64,000 bases of DNA, taken from positions 124,001 through 188,000 of the forward strand of contig NZ_JABETK010000003.1 in the NCBI RefSeq assembly GCF_013240295.1, given 5' to 3'. Within the stretch, counting starts at the first letter, position 1. The number at the start of each line of letters is the position of its first letter. The notes under the pieces are model-generated. The model had not been told where the DNA came from. It saw nothing but the letters and a program-made list of their open reading frames with translations, and did no database searches. Source of the stretch: Neoaquamicrobium sediminum (lineage in GTDB: Bacteria; Pseudomonadota; Alphaproteobacteria; Rhizobiales; Rhizobiaceae). A program made the translations under genes and the position numbers. Positions 13,704-37,610 of this stretch are shown piece after piece.

Positions 13704-13898
13704 AGATACATACTCTCGCACTTCAACGTCCATAGTGTGAGGTTTTGTACCAGATGGGGCCATAGAGGAAAAGACCGACGAGGTGTCGGATCGGCTGATT
13801 GGAAGCCTCCGCGCCGCTGATTGGAAGCGCATGTGGTCTGCCCCTGAAAAGTGGTCCTCCCTGAAGTAGGCTATTGAGCCTTTAGAGAGGACGTTGGA

Positions 13899-14177
13899 AT
13901 GCCCCAGAAGAAGCACAAGCCCGAAGAGATTGTCGCGAAACTGCGCCAGGTCGATGTCTTGTTGTCGCAAGGTCGATCGGTTGGTGAAGCGGTTCGCTCA
14001 ATAGGTGTGACGCAGTTCTCGTATTATCGGTGGCGCAAGGAGTTTGGTGGCCTGAAGGGCGACCAGGTGAAGCGCCTGAAAGAGCTTGAGAAAGAGAACG
14101 ACCGGCTGCGCAAGGCGGTGTCGGACCTGACGCTCGAGAAGCTGATCCTGAAAGAGGCTGCTGCGGGAAACTTCTGA
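13899..14177 (+). CDS. IS3-family transposase OrfA (copy B)
   Basis: A 92-residue OrfA matching the copy A protein except one HTH residue (FSYYRWR instead of FTYYRWR). Same leader and ribosome site. It carries the helix-turn-helix and leucine-rich C-terminal helix used to bind element ends and contact OrfB. Confidence 0.9.
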   Translation: MPQKKHKPEEIVAKLRQVDVLLSQGRSVGEAVRSIGVTQFSYYRWRKEFGGLKGDQVKRLKELEKENDRLRKAVSDLTLEKLILKEAAAGNF

Positions 14178-15190: not shown

Positions 15191-15381
15191 CTATCGATTC
15201 CCATGATCGGCATGAACGTGATAGATCGCCGGTGACGTGCCGCTGTGATCGACGACGGCAAGCGGCCGTTCTTCGAGCCAGACATATTCGCGTAGAAGCG
15301 TACCGCCCGCGTCATATTCGGCGATGATGTTGCCGTCCAGATCGTACACGAAGTGTGCGTTCCTCTCATCTGTCGCCAACC
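15191..15381 (-). pseudogene. RHS/YD-repeat protein remnant
   Basis: A fragment of an RHS-type protein core: HFVYDLDGNIIAEYDAGG, then LLREYVWLEERPLAVVD and IYHVHADH match the conserved YD-repeat-to-core region that normally continues with a LGTPR motif. Here the frame goes off and stops after HADHGNR, and the upstream coding part is missing. IS copy B lies immediately downstream on this strand. RHS proteins are large secreted polymorphic toxins, so this is a scrap of one. Confidence 0.7.
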
Positions 15382-15497
15382 GACACTCCCACTCCCATCG
15401 ACTGTGCCCTCGACACATTGAACCTCATCCCTCGCAGTCCGTACGGTCGTGCGAAGGGGACATCGACCGGATGCGCCCATCGGCAAGGGAGAGATCA

Positions 15498-17075: not shown

Positions 17076-17087
17076 TCGCTACGGGCT

Positions 17088-17126
17088 CCGCCGGCGCCCG
17101 ACCGGGCGCCGGCGGCTGTATTTTTT
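17088..17126 (+). terminator. Rho-independent terminator
   Basis: Perfect 12-bp GC stem (CCGCCGGCGCCC / GGGCGCCGGCGG) with a 4-nt loop, followed by CTGTATTTTTT. It lies just after the binding-protein gene and before the M20 gene, and is probably leaky since the permease genes follow. Confidence 0.85.
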
Positions 17127-17171
17127 AAAGAACGTGGCCGGCGGCCGCGGCAGAGGAGGCTTTCAGCCGAC

Positions 17172-18338: not shown

Positions 18339-19315
18339 TGCCTGTCGTCTCACGTCTCTTTGCGAAGCTTGCCGGGATTGTCTTCACGATCCTGGTGATC
18401 GCCACGATCAACTTCCTCCTCATTCATTCGACGCCCGGCGACCCTGCGCTGGTGATCGCGGGGCAGTCAGGTGCGACGGATGCGAAGTTCATCGAGCAGG
18501 TCCGGGCGCAATACGGGCTCGACCAGCCGTTCATCGTGCAGCTCGGCACCTATATCGGCAAGATCCTGCAGTTCGACCTTGGCTATTCGTACCGGCAGCA
18601 GACCGCGGTGAGCCAGCTCATTCTCGAGCGGCTCGGGCCGACGCTCCTTTTGACGCTTTCCGCATTCTTCCTCTCACTGATCGGCGGCGTTCTATTCGGA
18701 GCGCTGGCCGGCCAGCGCCAGGGCAAGTGGTCGGATCTCGTCATCTCGCTCTTGTCGCTGCTGCTTTACGCGACACCGGTATTCTGGCTCGGCCTGATGC
18801 TGGTGCTGATCTTCTCGATCCAGCTCGAGTGGCTGCCGGCCTTCGGCTATGCTGGCATCCGTGCAGCGAGCTTCGGTCCGATCGAATACGCACTCGACGT
18901 CGCGCGTCACCTGATCCTTCCCGTGATCACGCTCGCTGCGATCTACATGGCCGTCTATACACGCCTGATGCGGTCCTCGCTGATCGAGGTTTCGCACGAA
19001 GACCATGTGCGCACCGCCCGCGCGAAGGGTCTGAGCGAGCCGCAGATCCTGTCGCGGCATATGCTGCGCAACGCCGCTGTGCCGGTGGTGACCTTCGCCG
19101 GCATGCAGGCGGGCGCGCTGATCGGCGGCGCTGTGGTCGTCGAAACCGTGTTCTCCTGGCCCGGTCTCGGCCGGCTCACCTATGACGCGGTCACCGCGCG
19201 AGACTACCCAGTCCTTCTCGGCCTCTTCCTGATCATGTCGATCCTAGTGATCGCGACCAATCTGTTAAGCGACTTTCTGCACCGGCTCATCGATCCCCGC
19301 ATCAAAGGCCGATAG
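18338..19315 (+). CDS. ABC transporter permease (DppB type)
   Basis: A 325-residue inner-membrane permease with about six helices. The family opening (TPGDPALVI preceded by a hydrophobic helix) and the EAA-loop region (EDHVRTARAKGLSEPQIL followed by HMLRNAAVPVV) contact the ATPase. Start and stop are coupled: TGATG with the M20 gene, and 8 bases before the next permease. Confidence 0.93.
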   Translation: MPVVSRLFAKLAGIVFTILVIATINFLLIHSTPGDPALVIAGQSGATDAKFIEQVRAQYGLDQPFIVQLGTYIGKILQFDLGYSYRQQTAVSQLILERLGPTLLLTLSAFFLSLIGGVLFGALAGQRQGKWSDLVISLLSLLLYATPVFWLGLMLVLIFSIQLEWLPAFGYAGIRAASFGPIEYALDVARHLILPVITLAAIYMAVYTRLMRSSLIEVSHEDHVRTARAKGLSEPQILSRHMLRNAAVPVVTFAGMQAGALIGGAVVVETVFSWPGLGRLTYDAVTARDYPVLLGLFLIMSILVIATNLLSDFLHRLIDPRIKGR

Positions 19316-19323
19316 GAGCTGTC

Positions 19324-20154
19324 ATGCAGGATTTCATGCGTACCTTCCTCCGTCGGCCGGCCGGCAGTGTCGGCCTGCTGCTCCTCGCTTTGGTCTGCCT
19401 CCTCGCCGTCCTTGCGCCGCTACTCTATCCGGCCTCGCCATGGGAGATGGTGGGCATTCCCTTCAGCCGGCCTGGCGAGAATGACATGCTGCTGGGCAGC
19501 GATACGCTCGGGCGCGACGTCGCATCTGGCATAGCCCATGGGGCACGCGTCTCCATCCTGATCGGCCTTGCCTCGACGCTGACGGCGCTTTGCATCGGCG
19601 TCCCGCTCGGCTGCATCGCGGGCTATGCAGGTGGCGCAGTCGACAGCGCTATCGTGCGGCTCACCGAGATTTTCCAGACGATCCCGAGCTTCGTGCTGGC
19701 AATTCTCTTCGTTGCAATACTCACCCCGTCAATCGGCACGATTATCCTGGCGATCGGGCTCGTGAGCTGGCCCCCGCTGGCGCGGCTGACGCGCGCGCAG
19801 GTGAAGACTGTCTCCCAGCGAGAGTTCGTTCAGGCCGCGCGGTGCCAGGGCCAGTCGACCCTTTCGATCGTGCTGCGCCATGTCCTGCCCAACGCCGTGT
19901 CACCGATCATCGTGGCGGGATCGCTGACGGTTGCGGCCGCAATCCTCATCGAGGCGGCACTCTCCTTCATGGGGCTAGGTGACCCCAATTTCATGAGCTG
20001 GGGCTACATGGTCGGCGCCGGCCGCACCGTGATCCGGCAGGCATGGTGGATGAGCGTTTTTCCGGGCATCGCAATCCTGCTGACGGTCGTGGCGATCAAC
20101 CTCGTGGGCGAAGCCCTCAACGACACGCTGAACCCGAGGATTTCCCGAGCATGA
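19324..20154 (+). CDS. ABC transporter permease (DppC type)
   Basis: A 276-residue second permease subunit. The DppC-type N terminus leads to LLGSDTLGRDVASGIAHGAR, and the EAA loop reads EFVQAARCQGQSTLSIVLRH. A GGAGCT ribosome site precedes 19324. The stop overlaps the ATPase start in ATGA at 20151-20154. Confidence 0.93.
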   Translation: MQDFMRTFLRRPAGSVGLLLLALVCLLAVLAPLLYPASPWEMVGIPFSRPGENDMLLGSDTLGRDVASGIAHGARVSILIGLASTLTALCIGVPLGCIAGYAGGAVDSAIVRLTEIFQTIPSFVLAILFVAILTPSIGTIILAIGLVSWPPLARLTRAQVKTVSQREFVQAARCQGQSTLSIVLRHVLPNAVSPIIVAGSLTVAAAILIEAALSFMGLGDPNFMSWGYMVGAGRTVIRQAWWMSVFPGIAILLTVVAINLVGEALNDTLNPRISRA

Positions 20155-21778
20155 CCACGCCTTTGCTTGCCATCGAGAACCTCGTCCTCGGCCTGCCGCA
20201 GGGAGCAGACCGCAGCCGCGCCGTCGACGGGATCAGCCTGACGGTAGACCGCAACGAGATTGTCTGCCTCGTGGGTGAAAGTGGCTCGGGCAAGTCGATG
20301 ACTGCGCATGCGATCCTCGGGCTCCTTCCTTCGAAGGTGGAGGCGCTGCAGGGCGAGATACGGCTCGGCGGCCGCAACCTCATTGGCCTGGCGCCTCGCG
20401 ATATGCGTGCGCTGCGCGGCAGCAGCATCGCGATGATCTTTCAGGAACCGCTGACCGCTCTCAACCCGCTGGCGAAGGTCGGGCACCAGGTTGCCGAGGC
20501 GATCAGTATTCATGGCCGCATTGCCGACCGCGATGTCTCGGCCCGCGTCACCGAGCTCTTCGACCAGGTCGGGCTGCCCGACCCGGCGTCGATAGGGGCA
20601 GCCTATCCGTTTCAGCTTTCCGGCGGGCAGCGCCAACGCGTGATGATCGCTATGGCGCTCGCTAACGATCCGCAGCTCCTGATCGCCGACGAGCCTACCA
20701 CCGCGCTCGACGTGACGACGCAGCGGCAGATTCTCGACCTCATCCTGAGCCTCCAGAAGAAGCGCGACATGGGAGTGCTGTTCATAACCCATGATATCGG
20801 GGTGGTGGCAGACATTGCCGATCGTGTGGTCGTGCTGCGCCATGGCAAGGTGGTGGAAGAGGGGCTGCCGCGGCGGTGCTCGATCGCCCGCAGACCGACT
20901 ACACCCGCGACCTGCTCGACGCCGTGCCCGGCCGCGGAACCGTCCGCCCTGCCGCGGACGAGCGCGAAGCACTCCTGGAAATCAAGGACCTGCGGAAGGT
21001 CTTCACTTCGCGGCAGAGTTTCTTTGCCGAGCCGCGCCGCGTCGTCGCGGCGGACAGCATTAACCTTGAGCTCACGCGCGGCGACACGCTGGCTGTGGTG
21101 GGAGAGAGCGGATCGGGCAAGTCGACGCTCGCACGAATGGTGCTGCGCCTGATCGAGCCGGACGGTGGCACGATCCGCTTCGACGGCGCTGCGGTGCGCG
21201 AAATGAAAGGCGAGACGCTGCGCCAGTTCCGGCGCAGGGTGCAGATCGTCTTCCAGGATCCTTACGCTTCGCTTGATCCGCGGCTGAAGATCGGGGAGAG
21301 CATCGTACGCGGGCCCATGGCGTTCGGCGCTTCCCGCGCCGAGGCGGTGGCGATCGCCACACGCTGGCTGGAGAAGGTGGGTCTTGGCGCCCACGCACTC
21401 AATCGTTTTCCGCACGAGTTTTCCGGCGGCCAGCGTCAGCGCATCTGCATCGCCCGCGCGCTGGCGCTCGATCCCGTGTGCCTGATCGCCGATGAGGCCG
21501 TCTCAGCGTTGGATGTCTCGGTGCAGGCGCAGGTGCTGAAGCTGCTGTCCGACCTCAAGGCCGAGATCGGGCTGAGCATGCTTTTCATCACGCATGACCT
21601 GCGCGTGGCGCGCGAAATCGCCGACAAGATCGTTGTGATGCAGAACGGCCGTATCGTTGAGCAGGCGCCTGCGGCCGACCTCTTCGACGCACCGCGCGCG
21701 GACTACACGCGGCGACTGCTGGATGCGGTTCCGGGTCGCGACTTCTTCGTGCGGCGTGCCCTGGCAGACGCCGTCTGA
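20151..21778 (+). pseudogene. Fused DppD-DppF ABC ATPase, frameshifted in the middle
   Basis: Two ATP-binding cassettes in one gene, as in GsiA-like peptide transporters. Cassette 1 has Walker A GESGSGKSM, signature LSGGQRQRV and Walker B LLIADEPTTALD. Cassette 2 has GESGSGKST, FSGGQRQRI and LIADEAVSALD. The frame breaks between them at the four-G run 20861-20864; one more G joins VVEEG to AAVLDRPQTDYTRDLL and makes a ~540-aa protein. Both halves are otherwise perfect, which favours an under-called homopolymer. Cassette 2 has Ala instead of Pro in its Walker B DEA segment. Confidence 0.88.
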
Positions 21779-21790
21779 CGGATCAAGAGC

Positions 21791-23773
21791 ATGGACGACC
21801 GCACGCGTTCCTTCATCGAAAAGTCGACGCTCCTTTTCATCGCCTCGCGCAATGCAACCGGCGGCATGGACGTCTCGCCACGCGGCGGCCAGCCCTGCGT
21901 GGTGCGGATCGCGGACGATGGCCGCCTTTTCCTTCCCGATTATATCGGCAACCGCCGGCTCGACACGATCGGCAATGTGCTCAGCAATCCCGACGTGGCG
22001 CTGATCCTGCTCAACCGGCGGTCCGACGAATATCTGCGGATTGCCGCGCGCGCTACGGTTTCGCGAGAGCCGCTGGACATCGCTGCTTTTCCAGCAGATG
22101 AGAATCGTCCGCTGAGCGTCATGGTCCTGACGCCGGATCGGATGGAGTTCGTGTCAACCAAGGCGTTCGCAAAGAGCGGGTTCTGGATCGACCCGGCGGA
22201 CAGGAAACCGCCCCTCGACGTTCTCGACATCTACGACAGCGATGGCCGTTGGCAGGCGGAGAGCGGACGCAAGCCCGTTCTCTACGACGCTGCTGCCGAA
22301 AGCCGCCTGACCGACGTAGGTCTGCGCGAGACTTACGGAACGCCCAGCCCGCTGGTGCAGACGAAGGCCTATGGCACTGCCGGACCGGGTTTCATGGGCT
22401 TCATCGACGCCGCCCGGTTCATCGTACTCGCGCGGGAGAACGATACGGGAGAGATCCTACTCGAACTGGCGGCCGGTCCGCTTCGGCCCGATCCCGGCAC
22501 GAACCGGCAGTCCTTCCTCATCGACGTCGAACCCGACATGTCCGCTGCGCCGCACTCCGCCGAGTTCGCGCTGCTTGGTGTCGAGCCAGGACGTGCCGAC
22601 ATCATCCGCATCAACGGCGCCTATCGGGAGGTTGGTGCTGAAGTTGGCGGGCAGCGCCGGCTCGCTCTGCATCCGGAGGAGATATACTTCCATTGCCCCG
22701 CCGCCTTCTCGCGGTCGCGGATCTGGACGGACTCCCGCCCGATTGCCTGGAGCGGGCGGCGCAGCTTTACCTGCGTGACAAGGACACGGGAAAGCCCGGA
22801 TGTTGTCTCGTTGGTGCTGCAGCCGCGCGACGGCGCCCCCGTCGGCGACGTGTTACCTGGCCAATATGTGAATGTTTCGCTGCCGTATGACGATCACCCG
22901 ACGCCACGCCGCCGGTCCTACTCGATCTCTGGTGTCCCCGACGCACGGTCGTTGCGCATCTCCGTGCGGCGCGTCGGCAATGACGGGGTCTCTGCGCTGC
23001 TCCATGAAGCGGTCGCGGCGGGCGATGAGTTGCTAGTCGGGCCACCGGCTGGGCAATTCGTCCTCGACAGCGCACCGCTACGCCCGGTTGTGCTGGTCAG
23101 CGCCGGCGTTGGCATCACACCGCTGCTGCCGATGGCCGAGCAATTGGCACAAGAGGCCTCAAGGCGCGACGTCTGGTTCGTGCATGCAGCGCGCGACGCA
23201 CGGCACCACCTGTTTGCTGAAGAGACGCGGCGTATCGCAGCCGCCAATCCGCGTATCAGACTGCTGACTGCCTACTCCCGACCCCAGACCGGCGACAGCT
23301 GCCATCATCGGGGCCGCCTCGATGCCGAAGCGCTCGCGGCGCATGTCCCCGTCGCCGACGCCGATTTCTACATCTGCGGCCCCGCCGCCTTCATGGAATC
23401 GCTGAAACAGGGGTTGATCGAATGCGGGGTCGCGCCGGAGAGTATCAGGATGGAGGCGTTCGAGCAAAAGCAGGACGGCGGCCTATTCGCCTCCGCTGGC
23501 GTCCCTAACGAAGGGGGCCCATGCAGCGTGACCTTTGCCCGCTCCCAAAAAGACGTGACTTGGCAGCCCGAAAGCGGCTCGCTGCTCGACCTGGCCTTGG
23601 CCAATGGCGTCGATGTCCCGTATTCCTGCCGCAACGGCGAATGCCAGTCCTGCGCGCAACGCGTCGTCAGCGGAGGCGCTTTCTATCCGGCGGGCGATGA
23701 GCCGCTGCTTCCTCGTGGCCAGGTGCTGCTGTGCCAGGCGATCCCGCGCGGCGACATCGTCATCGATTGTTGA
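21791..23773 (+). CDS. PNPOx-like / ferredoxin reductase / [2Fe-2S] fusion oxidoreductase
   Basis: A 660-residue three-part protein. Residues ~1-165 are a pyridoxamine-phosphate-oxidase-like flavin fold (STLLFIASRNATGG ... LPDYIGNRRLDTIGNVL). Residues ~170-320 are less clear and may be a second such domain. Residues ~325-570 are an FNR-type reductase with FAD motif RRRSYSISG and the NAD segment SAGVGITPLLPM. The C-terminal ferredoxin has Cys at 613, 618, 621 and 648 (CX4CX2CX26C). Electrons would run NAD(P)H to FAD to Fe-S, with the N-terminal flavin domain as a possible partner. It starts 12 bases after the ABC ATPase, so it is co-transcribed with an uptake system. Confidence 0.85.
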   Translation: MDDRTRSFIEKSTLLFIASRNATGGMDVSPRGGQPCVVRIADDGRLFLPDYIGNRRLDTIGNVLSNPDVALILLNRRSDEYLRIAARATVSREPLDIAAFPADENRPLSVMVLTPDRMEFVSTKAFAKSGFWIDPADRKPPLDVLDIYDSDGRWQAESGRKPVLYDAAAESRLTDVGLRETYGTPSPLVQTKAYGTAGPGFMGFIDAARFIVLARENDTGEILLELAAGPLRPDPGTNRQSFLIDVEPDMSAAPHSAEFALLGVEPGRADIIRINGAYREVGAEVGGQRRLALHPEEIYFHCPAAFSRSRIWTDSRPIAWSGRRSFTCVTRTRESPDVVSLVLQPRDGAPVGDVLPGQYVNVSLPYDDHPTPRRRSYSISGVPDARSLRISVRRVGNDGVSALLHEAVAAGDELLVGPPAGQFVLDSAPLRPVVLVSAGVGITPLLPMAEQLAQEASRRDVWFVHAARDARHHLFAEETRRIAAANPRIRLLTAYSRPQTGDSCHHRGRLDAEALAAHVPVADADFYICGPAAFMESLKQGLIECGVAPESIRMEAFEQKQDGGLFASAGVPNEGGPCSVTFARSQKDVTWQPESGSLLDLALANGVDVPYSCRNGECQSCAQRVVSGGAFYPAGDEPLLPRGQVLLCQAIPRGDIVIDC

Positions 23774-23937
23774 GTAGGTCCGCGGGGCAGGAGTGATGAA
23801 TCAACATTGCGCGTGCCGCAGGCTATGTTCCGCAGACATTGTCGCGCGAGCCTTGGAATTCCTAACCTTGCAAGGCAAGAAGCGCGCTTCCGGTGCATGA
23901 GCGGCGGGAGCGTCTTTGCGAAACAGGGAGGAACATT

Positions 23938-25170
23938 GTGCAACATCGCAAGCTCGCAACAGTCTGCACCACCACCATGATCGCCGCTGCGGCCTTTGCC
24001 GGCACGAGCGCTTTCGCGCAAGACGCGCAAATCTCCGACGGCGTCGTGCGTGTCGGCTTCATCGAGGATATGTCCGGCGTCTATGCCGATATCACCGGCA
24101 TGGGCGCGGTGACCGCCGCACAGATGGCGGTCGAGGAGTTCGGTGGTAGCGTGCTCGGAATGCCGGTCGAGATCGTGTCGGCCGACCACCAGAACAAGCC
24201 CGACATCGCCGGCGCAATTGCGCGCAAATGGTTCGACGAGGACAAGGTCGATGCTATTCTCGACGTTGCCAGTTCTTCGCCGGCGCTCTCGGTGTTGGCG
24301 ATTGCCCGGGAGAAGGAGAAGATCCTGACGCTGAGCTCGCCGGGCTCGCTGCGGATCACCAACGAGGACTGTGGGCCCTACGTCGTTCACTGGGCCTACG
24401 ACACCCATGCGATCGCCCACAGCACGAGCAAGGCTCTCGTGGAGCAGGGTTTCGACAGCTGGTATTTCGTCGTCGCCGACTATGCCTTCGGCCACAGCCT
24501 CGAAAAGGACACGTCCGAGGTGGTGAAAGCGGCCGGTGGCGAGGTCCTGGGAAGCACGCGCCTGCCCGTCGGAACCACCGATTTCGCCTCCGCGCTGCTG
24601 ACCGCACAGAGCTCGGGAGCCGAGGTGGTCGCGCTGGCGAATGCTGGCAGCGACGCGATCAACTCGATCAAGCAGGCGGCTCAGTTCGGGCTCACGCAGG
24701 CCGGCCAGAAGCTCGCAACTCTCGCTGGCTTCATCAACGACGTGCATGGGCTCGGACTGGAGCAGGCGCAGGGCCTCACAGTAACAGAGGCGAGCTACTG
24801 GGATCTCAACGACGAGACGCGGGCGTGGTCTCAGCGCTTCTTCGAGGAGATGAACGCGATGCCCAACATGCTGCAAACCGGCACCTATTCGTCTGTGCTT
24901 CACTATCTCAGGGCCGTCGAGGCCGCTGGAACCGACGAGACAGAGGCGGTGATGTCGAAGATGCGCGAGATGGCAGTCAACGACGTCTTCTACAAAAACG
25001 GGACTATCCGCGAGGACGGACGCATGATGCACGACATGTATCTATTCGAGGTCAAGAAGCCTGAGGAGTCGAAAGGGCAGTGGGACTACTACAAGCTGCT
25101 CGCGACTGTTCCTGCGGAAGAAGCGTTTCAGCCGCTAGACAAATCGGCCTGTTCGCTCGTCTCGAACTGA
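23938..25170 (+). CDS. ABC transporter substrate-binding protein, branched-chain amino acid type
   Basis: A 410-residue periplasmic binding protein of the LivJ/Peripla_BP_6 type. The GTG at 23938 follows GGGAGGAACATT, and a signal peptide ends TSAFAQDAQ. The mature start VRVGFIEDMSGVYADITG and the core WYFVVADYAFGHSLEKDT are family-typical; such proteins in degradation islands often bind aromatic or organic acids rather than amino acids. No cognate permease or ATPase genes are adjacent, so it is either an orphan or works with a system elsewhere. It is convergent with the crotonase gene. Confidence 0.9.
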   Translation: MQHRKLATVCTTTMIAAAAFAGTSAFAQDAQISDGVVRVGFIEDMSGVYADITGMGAVTAAQMAVEEFGGSVLGMPVEIVSADHQNKPDIAGAIARKWFDEDKVDAILDVASSSPALSVLAIAREKEKILTLSSPGSLRITNEDCGPYVVHWAYDTHAIAHSTSKALVEQGFDSWYFVVADYAFGHSLEKDTSEVVKAAGGEVLGSTRLPVGTTDFASALLTAQSSGAEVVALANAGSDAINSIKQAAQFGLTQAGQKLATLAGFINDVHGLGLEQAQGLTVTEASYWDLNDETRAWSQRFFEEMNAMPNMLQTGTYSSVLHYLRAVEAAGTDETEAVMSKMREMAVNDVFYKNGTIREDGRMMHDMYLFEVKKPEESKGQWDYYKLLATVPAEEAFQPLDKSACSLVSN

Positions 25171-25228: not shown

Positions 25229-26002
25229 TCATTTACTTTTCTTCGCATTTCCACTCGCCCGCGCTGCGAAGGCGGCGAGCCCATTGCGCGCATCCTCGCT
25301 GGTAAACGTCCGCTGGCCGAGCGCGGCTTCGCGCGCGAAGGCTTCCGTCCATGGCAGGTCCTGAAGCGTCAGCACCGCCTCCTTGATGGTCTGCACCGCT
25401 GTCGGGCTGAGTGCTGCGATCCGCGCCGCTGTCTCGTGGGCTATGACGTCCACGTCCTCAGCTGGAACGGCCTGGTTGACGACACCGCGCGTGACAAGTT
25501 CGGCGGAAGAGAACCGGCGCGCCGAAAGCAGGATTTCCATGGCGTGGGCATAACCGATCTGTCGGACGAGCCGCACCAAGGTGCCGCCGGCCGGCACGAA
25601 ACCGTGGATCGGCTCTGGAAGTTGGAACTGCGCGTCTTCTGCGGCAATGCGGATGTCGGTCGCCAGCATGATCTCGAAACCGCCGCCCAGGCATAGCCCG
25701 CGCACCGCGCAGACGACCGGCTTGTAGAAATCCATGTTCTTCAGATGCGCAGGGTCCCAGGCGCTGATGTCGAAACGGCCGCTGGCCAGCGCGGGAATCG
25801 ATTCGGTCAGGTCCGCACCGACGCAGAACGCCCTGTCGCCGGTACCGGTCAGCACGACGGTTCGTATGTCGGCATCGTCGCGCGCCTCGGCGAAGGCAAG
25901 GCCGAGATCTTCATACATCTGCAGCGACAGGGCATTGAGCTTGTCGGGCCGGTTGATGGTGATGGTCGCGACGGGGCCGTTGCGGGTCAGGTCAATCGCC
26001 AT
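25229..26002 (-). CDS. Enoyl-CoA hydratase/isomerase (crotonase family)
   Basis: A 257-residue crotonase. The CoA-binding/oxyanion segment AFCVGADLTE and the block CLGGGFEIMLATDIRIA are present, with the two acidic residues of hydratases (Glu in GGGFE and Glu in FQLPEPIHGF), so hydration of an enoyl-CoA is chemically plausible. It is the last gene of a three-gene minus-strand set with a CoA-transferase and an HMG-CoA lyase. A 3-methylglutaconyl-CoA hydratase role is inferred from these neighbours, not from a specific motif. Confidence 0.88.
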   Translation of the reverse strand: MAIDLTRNGPVATITINRPDKLNALSLQMYEDLGLAFAEARDDADIRTVVLTGTGDRAFCVGADLTESIPALASGRFDISAWDPAHLKNMDFYKPVVCAVRGLCLGGGFEIMLATDIRIAAEDAQFQLPEPIHGFVPAGGTLVRLVRQIGYAHAMEILLSARRFSSAELVTRGVVNQAVPAEDVDVIAHETAARIAALSPTAVQTIKEAVLTLQDLPWTEAFAREAALGQRTFTSEDARNGLAAFAARASGNAKKSK

Positions 26003-26005
26003 GGC

Positions 26006-27247
26006 TCAGATCGCCCCGATCTCGGACAGCTTCTCGACCTCCTGTGGGGTGAGGCCGGCCAGGCGCGAATAGACGAAGCTGTTGTGCTCGCCCGGATTCG
26101 GCGCCTTCTCAGAAGGGTTGCCCGGCGTGTTGGACAACTTCACCGGCAGGCCGAACATGCGCACCAGTTTACCCGCCACCGGCACTTTGACGATCATCTC
26201 GCGAGCCGCGATGTGCGGGTCCTCGACAACCTCGGCGATCGTCTTGATGGCGCTGAGCGGAACCCGGTCGCCCGCAAGCTCTTCCAGTTCCGCCTTGGTG
26301 TAGACGCTGAACCAGCGTTCCAGGATCGGCTTGACGCGCCTGTCTGCAACGCGCGCGTCGAACCGCTTCTCCATCGTGTCGATCTCGGGATCGTCCGCGA
26401 GTTCTGGCTCGCCGAACATCTCGCAGGTGATCCGCCAGAATTTGTCGGTATAACCACCGAAGAACACGAAGCCGTCCTTGCAGGGGAATTGGCCGTAGGG
26501 ACGGACGAAGGGGTGGTCGTTGCCGAGCGGGGAGGCGACCTCACCACTGGTGGTGTAGCGGACCACTGCGTTCTCGGTCAGTGTCAGCACCGCGTCCTGC
26601 TGGGAGATATCTACGACCTGACCGCGACCGCTGTGCTCGGCTTCGCGCAGCGCGGCAAGCGTGCCGATCGCCGCATAAAGCGAGGCGGCGAGGTCGCCGA
26701 TAATCGTGCCGACCCGCACCGGCGGCATGTCGGGATAGCCGTTCATCGACCAGAGACCGCCGGTGGCCTGGCCGGTATTGTCGTAGGCAGGGCGCGAGGA
26801 GTTGGGACCCGTGCGCCCGAAGCCGCTGATTGCCGTATAGATCAGTCGCGGGTTCTCCTTGCGCAACACCTCGTACCCTAGGCCGAGCTTCTCCATCGTG
26901 CCTGGCCGGAAGTTCTCGACCAAGATGTCGGCACGTCGCACCAGTGTCTTCAGGAGCGCTTTGCCTTCTTCGGACTTCATGTTGAGCGTGATGCCCAGCT
27001 TGTTGCGGTTGAACTGCGTGAAGAAGGCGGAGAAGTCGCCATCGTCACCGTTGACGAAGGGTGGGAAGGTGCGAGCATAATCCGGGTCATCCGGGTGCTC
27101 GACCTTGATGACCGTCGCGCCGAGGTCGGCAAGCAACATCGAGCAGAAGGGACCCGCCACCACGCGCGTGATGTCGAGCACCGTTACGCCCTTGAGCGGG
27201 CCCGAGCCGGTGATGCCGCTGGCGGCGGCTGACTTGACGTCAGACAT
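26006..27247 (-). CDS. CaiB/BaiF family III CoA-transferase
   Basis: A 413-residue family III CoA-transferase that moves CoA between carboxylic acids through an aspartyl-CoA intermediate. The N-terminal KGVTVLDITRVVAGPFCSML and LGATVIKVEHPDDPDYAR are family hallmarks, and the catalytic Asp is probably the one in GTIIGDLAAS. The ribosome site GGGAGGACATCC precedes the ATG at 27247. It ends 3 bases before the crotonase start codon. The acid it activates is unknown; in this context a C5-C6 (di)carboxylic acid is likely. Confidence 0.92.
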   Translation of the reverse strand: MSDVKSAAASGITGSGPLKGVTVLDITRVVAGPFCSMLLADLGATVIKVEHPDDPDYARTFPPFVNGDDGDFSAFFTQFNRNKLGITLNMKSEEGKALLKTLVRRADILVENFRPGTMEKLGLGYEVLRKENPRLIYTAISGFGRTGPNSSRPAYDNTGQATGGLWSMNGYPDMPPVRVGTIIGDLAASLYAAIGTLAALREAEHSGRGQVVDISQQDAVLTLTENAVVRYTTSGEVASPLGNDHPFVRPYGQFPCKDGFVFFGGYTDKFWRITCEMFGEPELADDPEIDTMEKRFDARVADRRVKPILERWFSVYTKAELEELAGDRVPLSAIKTIAEVVEDPHIAAREMIVKVPVAGKLVRMFGLPVKLSNTPGNPSEKAPNPGEHNSFVYSRLAGLTPQEVEKLSEIGAI

Positions 27248-27338
27248 GGATGTCCTCCCTGTTTGGAATTGTTCGCCATCTCTCTCGGATGAACAATGTC
27301 GCCGTGCTACACCGCCGGGCTTGAGCGAGATAGGTTCT

Positions 27339-28253
27339 TCATAAGGCGCTATGCTGTTTCGCGCTCACGGCCAGCGCCCGGGCCACCTTCGACGCGGTCG
27401 CCCGTCCGAGATGGCGCGATATGAAGTCTCCGGCCGCCGCCACAGCACTGACGTCGATGCCCGTCTCCATGCCAAGCCCGTCAAGCATATAGACGAGATC
27501 TTCGGTAGCGACGTTGCCGGACGCTCCAGGCGCATAGGGACAGCCGCCAAGCCCGGCAACTGAACTGTCAATCGTCCTGACCCCATCGTCCAGGCAAGCG
27601 AGAATGTTCGCGAGCGCCTGGCCGCGCGTGTCGTGGAAATGAACCGCCAGGCTGTCGATCGGTAACTCGACCGCCGCAGCCCGGACCATGGCGCTTGCCT
27701 CGCGCGGCGTGCCGATGCCGATGGTGTCTCCAAGCGATATCTCACGACATCCGAGTGCTGAGAGACGGCGCGAAACGTCCACGACCGACCGCACCGACAC
27801 CTTACCTTCATAAGGGCAGCCGAGGACGCAGGACACGTAGCCGCGCACCGGGATCGAGCGGGCCTGCGCCAGCTCCATCACGGGCAAGAAGCGGTCAAGG
27901 CTTTCGTCGATCGAACAGTTGATGTTGCGCTGCGAGAACGTTTCGGATGCCGAGGCAAAGACAGCTAACTCCTGTATGGGAAGCTCGACGGCCTCCAAGG
28001 CGCCTTGCTCATTGGGAACAAGCACGCCGTAGATGACCTCGTCGAACCGGGGGAGCGAGCGCAACAGCTCTGCCGTGCCGGCCATCTGAGGAATCCGCCG
28101 GGGCGACACGAAACTTCCGACCTCGATACTGCGGAGCCCGGCTTGCGCCAGCTGCCTGACGAGCTCGATACGCACCTCGACCGGAACCGCAGTCGGCTCG
28201 TTCTGTAGGCCGTCGCGTGGTCCTACCTCCACGATCGTGACATGCTCCGCCAT
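27339..28253 (-). CDS. Hydroxymethylglutaryl-CoA lyase family protein
   Basis: A 304-residue HMGL-like TIM-barrel lyase; HMG-CoA lyase splits HMG-CoA to acetoacetate and acetyl-CoA. The substrate/metal motif VEVGPRDGLQNE, metal His pair HFHDTRGQALAN and the signature loop GLGGCPYAPGASGNVATED with its Cys are intact. The start at 28253 is chosen for GAGAGGACCG directly upstream. It is first in the minus-strand set and divergent from the GAF-PucR regulator across a 174-bp region with a dyad. Confidence 0.92.
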   Translation of the reverse strand: MAEHVTIVEVGPRDGLQNEPTAVPVEVRIELVRQLAQAGLRSIEVGSFVSPRRIPQMAGTAELLRSLPRFDEVIYGVLVPNEQGALEAVELPIQELAVFASASETFSQRNINCSIDESLDRFLPVMELAQARSIPVRGYVSCVLGCPYEGKVSVRSVVDVSRRLSALGCREISLGDTIGIGTPREASAMVRAAAVELPIDSLAVHFHDTRGQALANILACLDDGVRTIDSSVAGLGGCPYAPGASGNVATEDLVYMLDGLGMETGIDVSAVAAAGDFISRHLGRATASKVARALAVSAKQHSAL

Positions 28254-28348
28254 CGGTCCTCTCTTCCCGCCAAAGCGTGACGATCCGGAACAGTAGCAAT
28301 CGCGTGGATACCCAATGAATATGGGTCGCGCACATGATAGACGCCGAA

Positions 28349-28363
28349 GTATGTACGACATAC
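28349..28363. promoter_or_regulatory. Candidate operator GTATGT-ACG-ACATAC
   Basis: A perfect dyad with 6-bp arms and a 3-bp centre in the divergent region between the HMG-CoA lyase and the GAF-PucR regulator. A second, weaker dyad ACCCA-N7-TGGGT lies at 28310-28326. The PucR-like regulator next door is the likely binder, by position only. Confidence 0.4.
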
Positions 28364-28427
28364 ACATTCCCCTTGAGAGAAATCCGATTGTTTACTGTCA
28401 GATCGGAAAGTTGCCTGGGAGGAGGCG

Positions 28428-30367
28428 ATGAGAGCCAGCATTCGCCGCATCGAGTCGCCATCGCCGGAAGGCGTTCAGCACGATCATTACCGCCGCATCT
28501 TGAGCCTCCTCGACGCGAACGAGGCTTCCCGGAACTTGACCGACTTGGTGCGGAGATTCGGCAGCGTGTTCAGGCCGGAGATCTGCCGGCCTCCATGGCT
28601 GCGGACCTGGAGATCGCGCTGAGGCTTCAGGAGAATTTCGAAAACAAGCGCAAGCGTGAGCGCGAGCTTTCTGCCCTCTATGAAACGGCGCGCGACCTTT
28701 CCGCTCTGCGCAATACCGACCAGGTTCTGCAGGCGATCGTGCAGCGCGCCCGCCAGCTCGTCGGCAGCGACATTGCCTATCTTTCGGCAGCGGATGACGA
28801 GCGCAACGACTTCTACGTCCGGGCCACGGAAGGCGTCATTTCGCAGGACTTCGCCCGCATCCGGGTGCCACGCGAAATTGGGGTATGCGGCAGCGTCGCG
28901 CGGACGCGACGTCCATTCTATTCGAGCAGCTATTCGAGCGACGAGGCCTTTGCGCACGATCCGTCCATCGACCAGGCCACGCGCGGCGAGGGCGTCGTTT
29001 CCATTCTCGGCATTCCCCTCGAAGTCGATTCTCAGGTGATCGGCGTGCTGTTCGTCGGCGACCGCTATGTGCGTTCTTACACGCCGCAAGAAATGGCGGT
29101 GCTTTCCTCGCTTGGCACCTTCGCAGCGCTGGCAATTGAAAATGCACGCCTGTTCGAGGAGACGCGCCGGGCGCTGCAGACAGCGAAAGATGCCAATATC
29201 GCGCTCTCGACGCAGGCGGAGGAAGTCGAGCGCGGCCGCCGCGCACGAACAGCTTACCGAGCTCGTCGCGCGTGGCGGAACGCTGGACGATCTCTCGCGC
29301 CGCGTTGGAAAGCTGCTCAACGGACAGGCGGCAGTTCTCGATGAGCGGCTTAAGCCGATCAGCGGCACGTTTCCCCCGGATGCTCTGAGGAAGAGATCGT
29401 GCGCGCCGCGCGCGAGAGCGACCGGACGGGACGTTCGGTGCAAGTCCGGTGCGAGGACGGTGATATCGCCATCATCGCGGCCGCGATGGGCGGCAGTGCG
29501 CGCCTGGGCTCACTCCTGTTCAAGAGGCCCCGGCCATTCTCAGCGCCTGAGGTGCGGACCTTCGAGCGCAGCGCCATCGTCACCGGCATCGTGCTGCTAT
29601 CGATCGAACGGATCGCCCAGTCGGCACACAGAAGCGCTACTGACGCGATCTCGGCGTTGGCGCGTGGCACGTCCGATCCCTTCGCCGGCGGCGCTCTGAG
29701 GCAGCAGCCGGGCGCCAGCGCCGTCACGTGGCCGCTGACGATGATGCTGGTCGACGTCGGCGAGCTGCCATTCATGCAGGTCGCCGCCCCGGCACGTGCG
29801 GCGCTGACCGGACGCGACACAATTTTCGCCGAGTTCAACGGCGACCTCGTCGTGGCGACGAGCAGCGAGCGACCGCTGGACGTGGCGGAGCGGCTTTCGG
29901 AGGAACTGCAGGCCGCCACACAGCGCCGCCTGACCATCGTGGTTTCCGAACCCGTCGCTGCGATCGGCGAAGCGCCGCTGCGCTTCGAATCGCTGCGGCG
30001 GTGTGTCGGCCTCGTTCGTGGCCTGGGCCAGCAAGGCCGTATCGTATCCGAAAGCGCGATGGCGATGTATGCGACCATCTTCGCAGGCGGTCCGAGCGAC
30101 GCGGTCGGTGCCTTCGTGAGGGCAACGACTGGGCCTATCATCGAGCACGATCTGCGCAAGGGTAGTCAGCTCGCGCGCACGCTTGCTGCATATCTCGACA
30201 GCGGCAGGAGCCTCAGCAAGGCCGCCGAGCAGCTTGGCATCCATGTCAACACGATGCGGCAGCGCCTCGACCTCGTTGGACAGCTCAGCGCCGCCTGCCT
30301 CGATCCGGTGCACGGCCTTGAAACCCATCTCGCGCTGCGCCTGCACCTCATGAAGGCGGGCGGCTGA
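28428..30367 (+). pseudogene. GAF-domain PucR/CdaR-type transcriptional regulator, three frameshifts
   Basis: A regulator with an N-terminal helical region, a GAF sensor (YETARDLSALRNTDQVLQ ... VVSILGIPLEVDSQVIGVLF) and a C-terminal PucR-type HTH (LARTLAAYLDSGRSLSKAAE, then LGIHVNTMRQRLDLV). The frame breaks at about 28531 (GG where GGG fits), 29231-29241 (one GC unit short) and about 29386 (one G short in CTG GAG). Corrected, it is ~645 aa. The start at 28428 has GGGAGGAGGCG. It divides HMG-CoA lyase from HMG-CoA reductase and probably controls both. Three hits in one otherwise conserved gene fit sequence errors better than decay. Confidence 0.8.
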
Positions 30368-30475
30368 CCCTGTTCCCTTTCCACGTCAAGACTGCGGCAG
30401 CCTGTATCTCATCCACATTGTTGGCAGCCGGGCCGACAAATAGGCTCCTCGTCATCTGATTGAGGAGTCCACTTC

Positions 30476-31748
30476 ATGGTGACGAGCAGTCGTCTTCCCG
30501 GTTTCTATAAGCTGTCGCCTTCGGAGCGGCTAAACACCGTCTTGCAGGCGACAGGGCTGGAGATCGGGCAACTGGGGGCTGTCCTACCCGCGGACGACCA
30601 GATGCTCGCCATAGCTGACCGGATGATCGAGAACGTGATCGGCGCGCTATCGGTCCCGCTCGCAGTGGCCGCCAACTTCAAGATCAACGGCAAGGACTAC
30701 CTCATTCCGATGGCGACCGAGGAGCCTTCGGTGGTGGCCGCTGCCAGCAACATGGCGTCAGTCGCGCGCATCCATGGCGGCTTTCACGCTTCCAGCGACC
30801 AGCCGATCATGATCTCGCAGATCCAGGTGGTCGGCGCTCCCGATCCGCATGGCGCGCGGTTGCGCCTGTACGAGCGGCGCCGTGACATCCTCGATCTTGC
30901 GAACGAACAGGATCCGTTCCTCGTCAAGCTCGGCGGCGGCGCCAAGGATATCAAGGTGCGCATCATCGAGGCGCCGGGCGTGAGCCATGTCGTGCTCCAT
31001 CTCATCGTCGATGTCCGCGACGCCATGGGCGCCAACGCCGTCAATACGATGGCCGAGGCGTTGGCGCCGCTGGTCTCGGAGATTGCCGGGGGCAGGGTGC
31101 GCCTGCGCATCCTGTCGAACAAGGCCGATTTGAGGCTCGCGCGCGTCCGGGCGATCTACGACCGCGACGCACTCGGTGGTGAGGACGTGGTCAACGGCAT
31201 CATCGACGCCTATGACTTCGCGGTCGCCGATCCTTACCGTGCCGCGACCCACAACAAGGGCATCATGAACGGGATCACCGCAGTGGTGCTCGCCACCGGC
31301 AACGATACTCGGGCGGTCGAGGCGGGTGCGCATTGCCACGCCGCTGCAAGCGGTCGTTATACGTCCTTGTCCCACTACGAGAAGGACACAAATGGCAATC
31401 TCGTCGGCACCTTGGAACTGCCGATGGCGGTGGGGCTCGTCGGCGGCGCCACGAAGACACATCCGGTCGCTCAGGCGAGCGTCAGGATGCTGGGCGTCGA
31501 GAGCGCAGGAACTGGCGCAGATCATAACGGCGGTCGGGCTCGCGCAGAACACGGGCGCGCTACGCGCATTGGCGGCCGAGGGCATCCAGAAGGGCCATAT
31601 GTCGCTTCACGCTCGCAATGTCGCCATCGCGGCGGGCGCGGACGGCGACGAGATTGAGCATGTCGCCGCACGGTTGAAGCAGGCCGGGAATGTTCGGCTG
31701 GATATCGCGCAGAAGGTGCTGGAAGAGGTCCGCGCGGGGGCTGGGTAA
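30476..31748 (+). pseudogene. mvaA: Degradative (class II) HMG-CoA reductase, frameshift near the C terminus
   Basis: Class II hydroxymethylglutaryl-CoA reductase, which in bacteria such as Pseudomonas mevalonii oxidises mevalonate to HMG-CoA. Catalytic residues sit in IENVIGALSVPLAVA (Glu), HNKGIMNGITAV (Lys), GNDTRAVEAGAH (Asp) and GHMSLHARNVA (His). Length about 425 aa. The frame shifts at about 31503, where loss of one GC unit from GCGCGC interrupts SAQELAQIITAVGLAQN. The ATG at 30476 follows GAGGAGTCCACTTC. The gene is downstream of the PucR-type regulator and pairs functionally with the HMG-CoA lyase. Confidence 0.88.
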
Positions 31749-33930: not shown

Positions 33931-34932
33931 TTGGCGATCACCGTGGTTGAACTGACAAACAACACGCAGAGCGTCGAGACTGCCTACGTACTTATGCGTC
34001 GGACGTTGGACCTTCTGCCGGATGGTGTTCTGATTATCGGACACGATCGAAAAGTGCTCTACTTCAACGAGGCGTTCGAACGGCTGTGGCGTATCCCTCA
34101 CGATGTCGCCGAGTACGGCGACATTGCCATGCTTGATCACGTTGTAAGCCAACTTGACGATCCAACGTCGTTCGTGGCTCGCGTGGAACAACTCTATGAA
34201 AGTTCCGAATTCTCCGAAGACGAACTGACCTTCAAGGATGGACGGGTCTTCAACAGGCGCAGCGTTGCGCTAGGTGACGGCGGCGGCGGCTATAGCAGAA
34301 TCTGGATATTCAGCGATGTGACAGAAGCATGGAGCGCGCGGATCGACGTGTTGACCGGGTTACTGAACCGGCGCGCTTACGCCAACGAACTACCCGAATT
34401 CATGGCTTCTACCGAGTATGGCCGCACAAAGTCATTTGCACTGGTCGATGTGGATCAATTCAAGTCGTACAACGACAGCTATGGCCATGCGGCCGGAGAT
34501 GCTGTCCTTGAGAGGATTGGCGAGATATTGCGTCATGCTTGTGACAGCAATACAGCCTCGGCATATCGTATCGGCGGCGAAGAATTTGCTGTCACGTGCG
34601 TATCTGATGACGACGACGCAGCAGTCTCTTTCCATCAGGCAATTTTGCAGCACATTCGACAAGAAGTCGTAAAGCACGATGGAAACCATCCCCACGGCAT
34701 TGTCACCGTCTCTGTAGGTCTTGGGCTCTTCTCGGGGCCTGCAGACGCAAAGGTTGTCTTTGCGTCTGTTGATCGCGCGCTATATCGGGCGAAGAAGCTG
34801 GGCCGAAACACAATTGCGCTTGAGCCGATAGGGCATCTCTCAGGGATCGCGTCAAATCAAGCACCGGAGACGTGCAACAAATTGCAAGATCATTCTTCGC
34901 AACGCAGTATGATTTTAACCGGAACAGGTTAG
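33931..34932 (+). CDS. PAS-GGDEF diguanylate cyclase
   Basis: A 333-residue protein: an N-terminal PAS-like sensor (LPDGVLIIGHDRKVLYFNEA, FERLWRIP) and a GGDEF domain (DVLTGLLNRRAYANELP, FALVDVDQFKSYNDSYGHAA, active site RIGGEEFAVTC). The GGEEF variant is catalytically competent, so it should make cyclic di-GMP. No membrane helix is seen. The start is uncertain: TTG at 33931 gives the longest frame and GTG at 33943 is an alternative. It lies 33 bases before the larger GGDEF-EAL gene. Confidence 0.85.
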   Translation: MAITVVELTNNTQSVETAYVLMRRTLDLLPDGVLIIGHDRKVLYFNEAFERLWRIPHDVAEYGDIAMLDHVVSQLDDPTSFVARVEQLYESSEFSEDELTFKDGRVFNRRSVALGDGGGGYSRIWIFSDVTEAWSARIDVLTGLLNRRAYANELPEFMASTEYGRTKSFALVDVDQFKSYNDSYGHAAGDAVLERIGEILRHACDSNTASAYRIGGEEFAVTCVSDDDDAAVSFHQAILQHIRQEVVKHDGNHPHGIVTVSVGLGLFSGPADAKVVFASVDRALYRAKKLGRNTIALEPIGHLSGIASNQAPETCNKLQDHSSQRSMILTGTG

Positions 34933-34965
34933 CCCGAGAGGTAACTGGACCGCAGGGCTCTCACT

Positions 34966-37610
34966 ATGTTCGCTTCCATGAGGACGAATACCGAGATGGC
35001 GCAAAAAGACCGCTTATTCGATGTCCTCACACATTCAGTGCCCGGCTTCGTTTGGCTGTCCGATCCCAACGGCAATGTTGAATTCGTTAATGATGCGTGG
35101 TGTGAATACACCGGTCTCACGCGCACCGCGTCACTGGGAAAGGGATGGGCCCAGATGGTCCACCCCGATGATGTTGCTGCTCTTGGAGCGATCTGGCCGC
35201 CACGGGCCAGTGGTCAGAATCCGGCCTATCAAATCCAACTGCGGTTCCGCCATAAGAATGGGCAGTATCGCTGGCACGTGGTGCGCGCCAATCCGGTTGC
35301 AGATAGCGGCGGACAGTGGATCGGTTGCTCGACTGATATACATGATCTAGTCGCCATGCAGACGAGAGATCGTGCTCAGGCCGAGATCCTCAACAAGGTC
35401 GCTGCCGGCGACGACGTTCTCTCTATCCTAGAAGAACTTTGTACGCTGGGCGAAGAGCAGCTGCCAGGCAGTCGTTGTACGGTTCTCCTCCTGAACGACG
35501 GTGGCACAGAATTCACCGGTGGTGCGGCCCCATTTCTTCCTGACACTGTTCATTCGTTGATACCCGGCACGAAGGTCGGAACTGGTGTCGGCTCCTGCGG
35601 CACTGCGGCTTTCGAGAAGCGCGATGTCGTTTCAGAATGTATCGAGACCGATCCTTTATGGGATGATTGGCGAGAAGCATTCACACCACTTGGCATCAAG
35701 GCTTGCTGGTCGCTGCCGGTATATGGGCCCGATGGTGATGTGCTCGCAACGTTCGGCTTCTATTTCTACGAGGAGCGTGCCCCCGGGAGGATGAGCTCAA
35801 GAACCTCGACAATCTGCGGCGCTTGGCATCCGTAGCCATCGACAAGGCGCGAACAGCGCAGGCCCTTCGGGAAAGCGAAGAACATTATCGCCACACAGTC
35901 GAGCACAACCCCCAGATCCCATGGACTGCCGATCCGCAGGGGCGGATAATGAGTTTGTCGTCACGTTGGAAGGAAGCGACCGGCTTGCCGGTGGAAAGTG
36001 CCATTGGTCATGGGTGGTTCCAGGCTCTCCATCCTGAGGACGTTGACCGCGTAAGGGGCTATTGGGCGGAAAGGCTTCAAACCGGTGAGCCGGCGGATTT
36101 GAAGTATCGCATACGCTTGGAGGACTACACCTATCGATGGGTGCGAGCTCGGGCAACACCGAGACGGGATGAGGATGGCCAGATCGTAAAATGGTACGGC
36201 GCAGTCGAAGACATCCACGATCTTGAATTGGCCACTGAACGGCTTCACAGGCAGGCTTATGTTGACGATCTAACGCGGCTTGCGAATAGGCGGTCTGTTG
36301 AAGAAGAGTTGGCGGGTTTGCTACAGGAACCCCGAACTTGCGGTCCCGTCGAACTTCTGGTCGTAGACCTCTCTGGCTTCCGGCACCTGAACGATCGCTT
36401 TGGTCATGAGACGGGGGATGCGGTCCTCCGGCTCTTTGCGATTCTTCTGCGCAAGTGCCTATCTGAAACCGATGTGATTGGGCGGATTGCGGGCGACCAA
36501 TTCGTGGTGATGCTTCACGAGCCCATTGGTGAAGCTGGCTTGCAGTCGTTTGCGGTCAAGCTCGCGCGTGAACTCGAGCATCGAATGGATCGGAACACAA
36601 GAACGCGCAATGTTGGGGTCCGTATCGGTTGCGCCCGGTCGTTGGTTGGTGATCGTTGCGAAGATTTGATCCGCCGCGCAAAAATGGCACTGTACGCAGC
36701 CAAGGAAGACAGCAAACAACCAGCCAGGTTGTTCACGCCTGCTCTTCAGCGCACTATCAACGAGCGTGCCGATCAGCTCGAACTCGCCAGGCAGGCACTC
36801 AGGTCTCGCTGGTTGGTTCCCTACTACCAGCCCATGATCGATTTGAGGTCTGGCGAGGTGGCTGGCGCTGAGGCTCTGCTTCGGGTCGACCATCCCGCCG
36901 ATGGGATACTCTCCCCTGCGTCTATATGGGCTGCACTTGACGCTCCCAAGCTCAGCAAGTTGATCAACGACCAAATGATGGCGCTCGTGCTTTCGGACCT
37001 ACGTGAATGGGGACCATGGCCTGCCTCGGTGGGAAGCATCTCGATCAATCTTTCGGGCGAAATGCTAATGCAGGAGGGGCTAGCGCGCTCGCTGCTGCGG
37101 AAGCTTGAGCGTAAATCCGTCAAACCACACCAGCTCACTGTCGAAATTACTGAACGTGTGCTGGTGGACGAGCTCGCCCCCAAGACGCGCCAATGCCTTG
37201 AGCAGTTGCAGCGGCATGGTGTTCGTGTGTCGCTCGATGATTTCGGCACCGGCTTTGCATCACTCACGCACCTTCAGCGACTCCCGGTGAACGAAATCAA
37301 GATCGATCGGTCTTTTGTCAGCGATCTTGGGCAGAGCGGCACCGGGACGGCGATTGTAAAATCGATGATCCATCTGGCGCAAAACATGGGAATAGACGTC
37401 GTAGCAGAAGGGGTGGAGACGACTGAGCAGGCACACCTGTTGCAAGAATGGGGGTGCCGATACGCCCAAGGGTATTATTTCTCCAAGCCTTTGCCAGCGG
37501 ATGAGTTTGGTGCGATTTGGTGTGCTGTTACGAAGCCCTACCGCGGAACATTCCAGCAAAAGCGCCCCCTTCCGACGCGAAGTGATGGTGTTGCAGTTTC
37601 TCATAGCTAG
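34966..37610 (+). pseudogene. PAS-GAF-PAS-GGDEF-EAL signalling protein, one frameshift
   Basis: Order of domains: PAS (VPGFVWLSDPNGNVEFVNDA), GAF (VAAGDDVLSILEELCTLGEE ... SLPVYGPDGDVLATFGFYFY), PAS (NPQIPWTADPQGRIM ... WVRARATPRRDEDG), GGDEF and EAL. The GGDEF site is degenerate (RIAGDQF), so cyclase activity is unlikely. The EAL domain keeps AGAEALLR, DDFGTGFASL, KIDRSFVSD and AEGVETTEQ, so cyclic-di-GMP hydrolysis is plausible. The frame breaks at 35785-35787 where CCCCCGGG needs one more G to continue ERAPGEDELKNLDNLRRLA. Corrected length ~880 aa. Confidence 0.85.

Follow-up and report, generated by a model that had tools for sequence, protein, structure and literature searches.

Why are a family III coenzyme A (CoA) transferase and a crotonase encoded beside the enzymes of mevalonate catabolism? 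This question is raised by a locus of Neoaquamicrobium sediminum in a 64,000-nucleotide stretch of contig NZ_JABETK010000003.1, which was analyzed as a whole (hereafter the window, to which all positions refer). The combination of 3-hydroxy-3-methylglutaryl-CoA (HMG-CoA) reductase (HMGR) with HMG-CoA lyase is a known route of mevalonate catabolism, represented by mvaAB of Pseudomonas mevalonii. We propose, with a probability of roughly 0.55, that the window carries a catabolic island that would degrade mevalonate and anhydromevalonate (5-hydroxy-3-methylpent-2-enoate) to acetyl-CoA and acetoacetate. The system would represent a variant of mevalonate catabolism with an added CoA-transferase/crotonase feeder, a proposal drawn entirely from comparative genomics. 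The core genes are given below with bit scores against NCBIfam curated cut-offs or with Pfam E-values:

25229-26002, minus strand: crotonase-family enoyl-CoA hydratase (ECH), proposed anhydromevalonyl-CoA hydratase (PF00378, 1.4e-57)
26006-27247, minus strand: family III CoA-transferase (CoAT), proposed mevalonyl-CoA:anhydromevalonate CoA-transferase (PF02515, 3.8e-125)
27339-28253, minus strand: HMG-CoA lyase, TIM-barrel type (NF004283, 426.9 bits, cut-off 246)
28428-30367, plus strand: GAF and HTH_30 (PucR-type) regulator (GAF_2, 8.1e-20; HTH_30, PF13556, 1.2e-13)
30476-31748, plus strand: degradative class II HMGR (TIGR00532, 386.8 bits, cut-off 259.95)

All four enzymes that a preliminary description of this DNA had placed around a PucR-type regulator are present, with strong Pfam or NCBIfam matches. 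The lyase, CoAT and ECH genes lie in tandem on the minus strand, the last two only 3 nucleotides apart, and diverge from the regulator, whose C-terminal HTH_30 domain is present, and from HMGR, which follows it on the plus strand. The lyase adjoins the HMGR locus with the regulator in between; its gene probably starts at 28253 rather than at 28367, the start of a longer open reading frame (ORF), a choice made from the translation, and its nearest solved structures are the HMG-CoA lyases 2ftp and 2cw6. HMGR exceeds the cut-off of the degradative-type model in spite of a frameshift in its gene, and the solved HMGRs nearest to the intact copy in L081, an Aquamicrobium metagenome-assembled genome (MAG), are 6dio and 1qax. 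As in mvaAB, a degradative class II HMGR is combined with a TIM-barrel HMG-CoA lyase; in the window, however, the two are divergent around the PucR-type regulator, and the CoA-transferase/crotonase pair and genes for import and an amidase are added.

The catalytic residues expected of the added pair are conserved. Glu110 and Glu130 of ECH, which we take to be the positions of the two catalytic glutamates of crotonases, are invariant across 12 homologues; likewise invariant across 12 homologues is Asp185 of CoAT, which aligns with an aspartate of four solved family III enzymes and is presumably the catalytic aspartate of that family. The family models assign a substrate to neither enzyme: CoAT exceeds none of the cut-offs of its 7 matched NCBIfam models and ECH none among the 25 listed of its 73 matched models. 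In the CaiB/CaiD cycle of crotonobetaine and carnitine, a family III CoA-transferase and a crotonase operate with recycling of CoA, and hydration with CoA recycling by such a pair is also what we propose here. The window proteins differ in remaining far below the carnitine CoA-transferase and crotonobetainyl-CoA hydratase equivalogs (148.5 of 413 and 140.6 of 500 bits, respectively) and in their expected substrate. Itaconate dissimilation, as described in PMC6689899, follows a similar logic of CoA-transferase, hydratase and lyase, with no HMGR step. This pathway was set aside, given that the window lyase is of the HMG-CoA type and that CoAT scores 318.9 of the 700 bits required by the mesaconate CoA-transferase model.

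The pair is linked to mevalonate catabolism by its association with HMGR, which we examined in three genome samples, scoring HMGR by TIGR00532 over its cut-off. In the family sample, HMGR exceeds the cut-off in 41 of 297 genomes (44 have any match at E<=0.001), and all 12 genomes with CoAT (protein search at E<=1e-120), the window genome counted, also carry HMGR, a co-occurrence with a hypergeometric probability of 1e-11 if kinship is ignored. The class sample of 385 genomes includes 3 with CoAT (again counting the window genome) and 13 with HMGR, and each of the 3 has both. Similarly, in an actinobacterial order represented by 297 genomes, HMGR is over the cut-off in 14/14 genomes with CoAT and in 3 of the 20 tested among the 283 CoAT-negative ones; the two genes lie within 8 kb of each other in 13 of these 14 genomes and on different contigs in the remaining one. 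HMGR without CoAT is common, while CoAT without HMGR was found in none of the three samples. Because CoAT implies HMGR in this way and HMGR often occurs without CoAT, a step before HMGR is suggested, and CoAT and ECH would most likely act upstream of HMGR, delivering mevalonate to it. At the level of neighborhoods, 40 HMGR regions from the family, each 5-20 kb long, were examined, and 11 of them (L033-L037, L039, L041, L046, L055, L059 and L064) have CoAT and ECH next to HMGR. The island is patchy, as the other four genomes sampled from the genus have no HMGR and no CoAT at E<=1e-120.

A second survey covered the CoAT loci L081-L160, the best 80 of 325 relatives from one search, which partly overlap the genome samples (L083 is G064, for instance) and which, by class assignments that we took from organism names, span Alpha-, Beta- and Gammaproteobacteria and Actinobacteria. 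With presence thresholds set after a first look at the data, ECH was found within 10 kb of CoAT at 75 of the 80 loci, HMGR at 73, and the complete core of CoAT, ECH and HMGR at 73. The order of the core genes varies between clades, and the association has therefore been kept through rearrangement. HMG-CoA lyase lies within the same distance at 41 of the 80 loci and at 40 of the 73 core loci.

These counts bear on how the enzymes are connected. The preliminary description had envisaged a funnel in which mevalonate and a C6 dicarboxylate converge on HMG-CoA; its gene calls and the cleavage of HMG-CoA at the end hold. The dicarboxylate role of CoAT and ECH fits less well, since the pair tracks HMGR (73/80) more than the lyase (40/73), which points to a mevalonate feeder rather than a parallel road. 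In the dicarboxylate scheme, CoAT would activate 3-methylglutaconate or 3-hydroxy-3-methylglutarate, the crotonase would hydrate the product to HMG-CoA and the lyase would cleave it, with HMGR as a parallel entry from mevalonate. All the enzymes can indeed meet at HMG-CoA, and the human succinate-hydroxymethylglutarate CoA-transferase SUGCT (9br6/9br7), a family III enzyme that acts on dicarboxylates, is among the solved relatives of CoAT (1.5e-59), although CoAT reaches only 285.7 of the 750 bits of the glutarate CoA-transferase model. A ferrichrome acyl group printed as 'transb-ethylglutaconyl' in PMC8781417, which we take as trans-beta-methylglutaconyl, also speaks for this scheme. Considering that no genome with CoAT lacks HMGR in the three samples, with five exceptions among the records of the 80-locus survey, we regard the dicarboxylate scheme as unlikely.

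The proposed feeder role is nevertheless weakened by two sets of observations from the same survey. First, among the 33 core loci without a nearby lyase, 32 belong to genomes that carry a lyase over the cut-off elsewhere, the lone exception being L086, a MAG, and the contrast between HMGR and lyase is therefore one of adjacency only; the presence of the lyase near 40 of the 73 cores and elsewhere in these 32 genomes also speaks for the dicarboxylate scheme. Second, seven of the 80 loci have no HMGR within 10 kb. Azospirillum (L123) and Acrocarpospora (L124) carry it elsewhere, while it is absent from five records, namely two Pseudonocardia records (7.0 and 7.4 Mb) plus three others of 1.5-2.0 Mb; in each of the five, ECH is missing from the CoAT locus as well. 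The two Pseudonocardia records (L146 and L147) encode a close relative of CoAT (65% identity) with no ECH near it and no HMGR in their 7.0-7.4 Mb, and its function there must differ.

The adjacency counts also address the suggestion that CoAT handles the acetoacetate released by the lyase in a SCOT-like manner, which would make the neighborhood one of ordinary mevalonate catabolism by the known route of HMGR and lyase. An enzyme of this kind would be expected beside the lyase, yet CoAT is found more often beside HMGR (73 of 80 loci against 40 of 73), and the crotonase would be left without a role. We consider this explanation very improbable and set it aside because the pair joins HMGR more than the lyase.

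The pathway from anhydromevalonate would proceed as follows. An acylated or peptide-like conjugate would be imported, in the window by an Opp transporter, and its amide bond would be cut, in the window by an M20 amidohydrolase, freeing anhydromevalonate. CoAT would shift CoA from mevalonyl-CoA onto anhydromevalonate, ECH would hydrate the anhydromevalonyl-CoA to mevalonyl-CoA, and the next turnover of CoAT would free mevalonate, so that the pair would form a closed, CaiB/CaiD-like CoA cycle. HMGR, run oxidatively, would convert mevalonate into HMG-CoA, which the lyase would cleave, and the PucR-type regulator may sense a compound of the pathway and act at the divergent promoter. If the pair acts upstream of HMGR, its product must be mevalonate, and for a crotonase combined with a CoA-transferase this makes anhydromevalonate the natural candidate substrate.

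The predicted import and amide-cleavage functions are encoded to the left of the core:

15324-17075, plus strand: SBP_bac_5 peptide-type solute-binding protein (PF00496, 1e-83)
17172-18338, plus strand: M20 amidohydrolase, proposed N-acyl hydrolase (PF01546, 2.7e-26; TIGR01891, 197.5 bits, cut-off 153.75)
18338-20154, plus strand: OppB and OppC permeases (named by eye and by their place before OppDF; homologues beside the core of relatives)
20043-21778, plus strand: OppD-OppF ATPases, frameshifted as assembled (ABC_tran)
21791-23773, plus strand: PPOX-like/flavohemoprotein-like reductase/2Fe-2S fusion, 660 amino acids (PNPOx_N, NAD_binding_1, Fer2)
23893-25170, plus strand: LIV-type periplasmic binding protein, Peripla_BP_6 (PF13458, 2.1e-109)

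The unit extends leftward from the core over 15324-25170, and its SBP_bac_5, M20, Opp, flavoreductase and LIV-type genes recur beside the core in relatives. The core with both M20 and Opp is found in the window and in six named relatives (L081, L082, L084, L085, L087 and L098). Among the 40 family HMGR regions, homologues of the window-type PucR occur in six (L034-L037, L039 and L041), those of its M20 in six (L033, L034, L036, L037, L039 and L041), and Opp homologues of more than 70% identity in four (L033, L034, L036 and L037), the stretches of L039 and L041 ending at M20. The flavoreductase fusion, found beside the core at 7 of the 80 CoAT loci, is a possible reductase of a ferric (siderophore) complex or of an N-hydroxy or hydroxamate group. 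At its left edge, the island is adjoined by AbiEii toxin and AbiEi antitoxin genes (12224-13970, minus strand), next to an integrase-core transposase at 14213-15067.

Across lineages, the modules that accompany the core vary. For Pfam comparison, 40 neighboring ORFs were picked by hand, several of them without a family (perhaps shadow ORFs), and homologues were then counted in the 80 loci: the window M20 has them at 7, OppB at 9, the LIV-type binding protein at 17 and a MocR-type regulator at 26. A BPD_transp_2 permease with a fused strictosidine-synthase/gluconolactonase-like domain (for example, L083:14143-16251) is present at 11 loci, and a HyuA+HyuB pair at 28, all actinobacterial. This hydantoinase-family pair lies near PucR/HMGR and CoAT/ECH in L114 and 27 other actinobacterial loci, and possibly represents an ATP-dependent amide or ring hydrolase; our literature search yielded nothing usable on ATP-dependent diketopiperazine hydrolases as a possible explanation of HyuAB, on the substrate-binding site of SUGCT, or on a link between PucR, hydantoinase and mevalonate. 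Such variety would agree with CoAT and ECH acting on a different acid, such as a lactone or a product of HyuAB, whose breakdown gives mevalonate or HMG-CoA. There is, however, little chemical freedom if the pair must deliver mevalonate, and the lactone of anhydromevalonate already falls under the pathway proposed above; we therefore judge a different acid to be rather unlikely.

Where anhydromevalonate would come from is suggested by fungal biochemistry. In fungi, SidI and SidH convert mevalonate into anhydromevalonyl-CoA, which is then incorporated into fusarinines and coprogens (PMC3709128); anhydromevalonyl acyl groups occur in ferrichromes and fusarinines, and an esterase partly hydrolyzes fusarinine-type siderophores (PMC8781417). 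The fungal steps described in PMC3709128 share with our scheme the metabolites and the mevalonyl-CoA hydratase step, a likeness of chemistry; the bacterial route would run in the reverse direction, with a CoA-transferase where the fungus has a CoA ligase. Fungal fusarinine- or coprogen-type siderophores are the likely natural source, and in other lineages it may perhaps be the lactone or the free acid.

This siderophore hypothesis was formulated before the xanthomonad loci were examined. Beside the core, all seven (L116, L118, L119, L120, L126, L127 and L137) have homologues of the TonB receptor, M20 and esterase of L118. The best NCBIfam model for the L118 receptor is FhuE (403 bits, cut-off 666), followed by FauA (366 bits); it clears the cut-off for siderophore receptors in general, and its closest relative of solved structure is FhuE 6e4v. 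The L118 M20 exceeds the cut-off of the TIGR01892 acetylornithine deacetylase model (400.8 against 297.7 bits). The seven genomes each contain 1-3 FhuE-class receptors (E<=1e-60), and the only such receptor of Pseudoxanthomonas yeongjuensis is that adjacent to the core. A second, weaker case is L110 (Sphingomonas), where a FauA/FhuE-like receptor beside the core is one of four such in the genome.

On this basis, it is conceivable, though doubtful enough to be put forward only tentatively, that Proteobacteria and Actinobacteria possess a dedicated pathway in which fungal hydroxamate siderophores (coprogens and fusarinines) serve as food. These would be imported and cleaved at their ester and amide bonds, and the CaiB/CaiD-like cycle would then turn the anhydromevalonate set free into mevalonate for HMGR and the lyase. 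Several findings weigh against it. The core-adjacent receptors all stay under the FhuE cut-off, and in G997, G999, G1002 and G1008, four of these seven genomes, a different receptor, far from the core, exceeds it (764-803 bits); the core-adjacent protein is accordingly a relative of FhuE and not FhuE itself, which weakens the case. Being related, the seven xanthomonad loci amount roughly to one observation. None of the three scored acyl hydrolases is found at 29 of the 73 core loci, and Actinobacteria have HyuA/HyuB instead. As for the window, no siderophore receptor was found among the approximately 20 ORFs scanned, and compared with the xanthomonads it has only M20 and a peptide-type transporter instead of the receptor, deacylase and esterase set.

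These same modules bear on the possibility that CoAT and ECH racemize mevalonate via anhydromevalonyl-CoA, making (S)-mevalonate usable by an (R)-specific HMGR. Its chemistry is that of the anhydromevalonate pathway, and it predicts an equal association with HMGR. It leaves the amidase, the esterase and the FhuE-like receptor unexplained, and we know of no large source of (S)-mevalonate; we find it improbable.

If the anhydromevalonate pathway is correct, a CoA-transferase/crotonase pair of Alpha-, Beta- and Gammaproteobacteria and Actinobacteria would gain a function and a named carbon source, and a bacterial means of disposing of the acyl moiety of fungal siderophores would be suggested. Catabolism by soil bacteria could then be tied to the iron supply of fungi in a simple and testable way. 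Should the siderophores themselves serve as food, the bacterium would be fed and the fungal iron carrier destroyed. The preliminary description knew of no such operon, and in the open-access literature, searched by titles and abstract openings with subscription papers mostly outside its scope, neither bacterial catabolism of anhydromevalonate nor an operon of this type appears among the matches listed. Bacterial degradation of amphibactins, reported in PMC11800396, is a different case.

The divergent promoter contains a perfect dyad, GTATGT-ACG-ACATAC, at 28349-28363. The dyad noted in the preliminary description is therefore real, although the nearest relative does not retain it in this form. 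Overlapping it is a weak candidate operator:

28350-28367, no strand assigned: T[AG]TGT-N9-ACAT, overlapping the dyad

The motif, derived from the window and L081, L082, L084 and L085, has one match in the whole window, which is about the chance expectation there. It is present upstream of PucR at 6 of the 13 other loci tested (L081-L085 and L098) and absent at L086, L087, L102, L103, L114, L123 and L152; once the motif-defining loci are removed, the independent matches are L083 and L098, or 2 of 9. The longer TGT-N9-ACA form is thus a weakly supported operator candidate.

As assembled, several of the frames discussed here are broken relative to L081, whose DNA is 91.7% identical to the window. 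The regulator has deletions of 1-2 nucleotides near 28531, 29231 and 29375, HMGR has a 2-nucleotide deletion near 31504, OppDF has a 1-nucleotide deletion near 20861, and further indels occur in the window. In relatives, the regulator (L081, L034, L037 and others) and HMGR genes are single open frames, and the rpoB gene of the window genome (G000, C2:617509-621555) itself matches as three stretches alternating between two frames; assembly error is therefore the likelier cause. Three other CoA-transferase genes of this genome, whose assembly comprises 6.1 Mb in 9 contigs and is 94.85% complete, each match as two neighboring pieces. Taken together, the intact relatives, the split rpoB and these split genes disfavor a pseudogene reading of the regulator and HMGR, and the frameshifts are likelier to be assembly indels. 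To the right of the island, at 33931-37610, PAS/GGDEF/EAL-like signaling ORFs were recognized by eye, possibly split by further indels.

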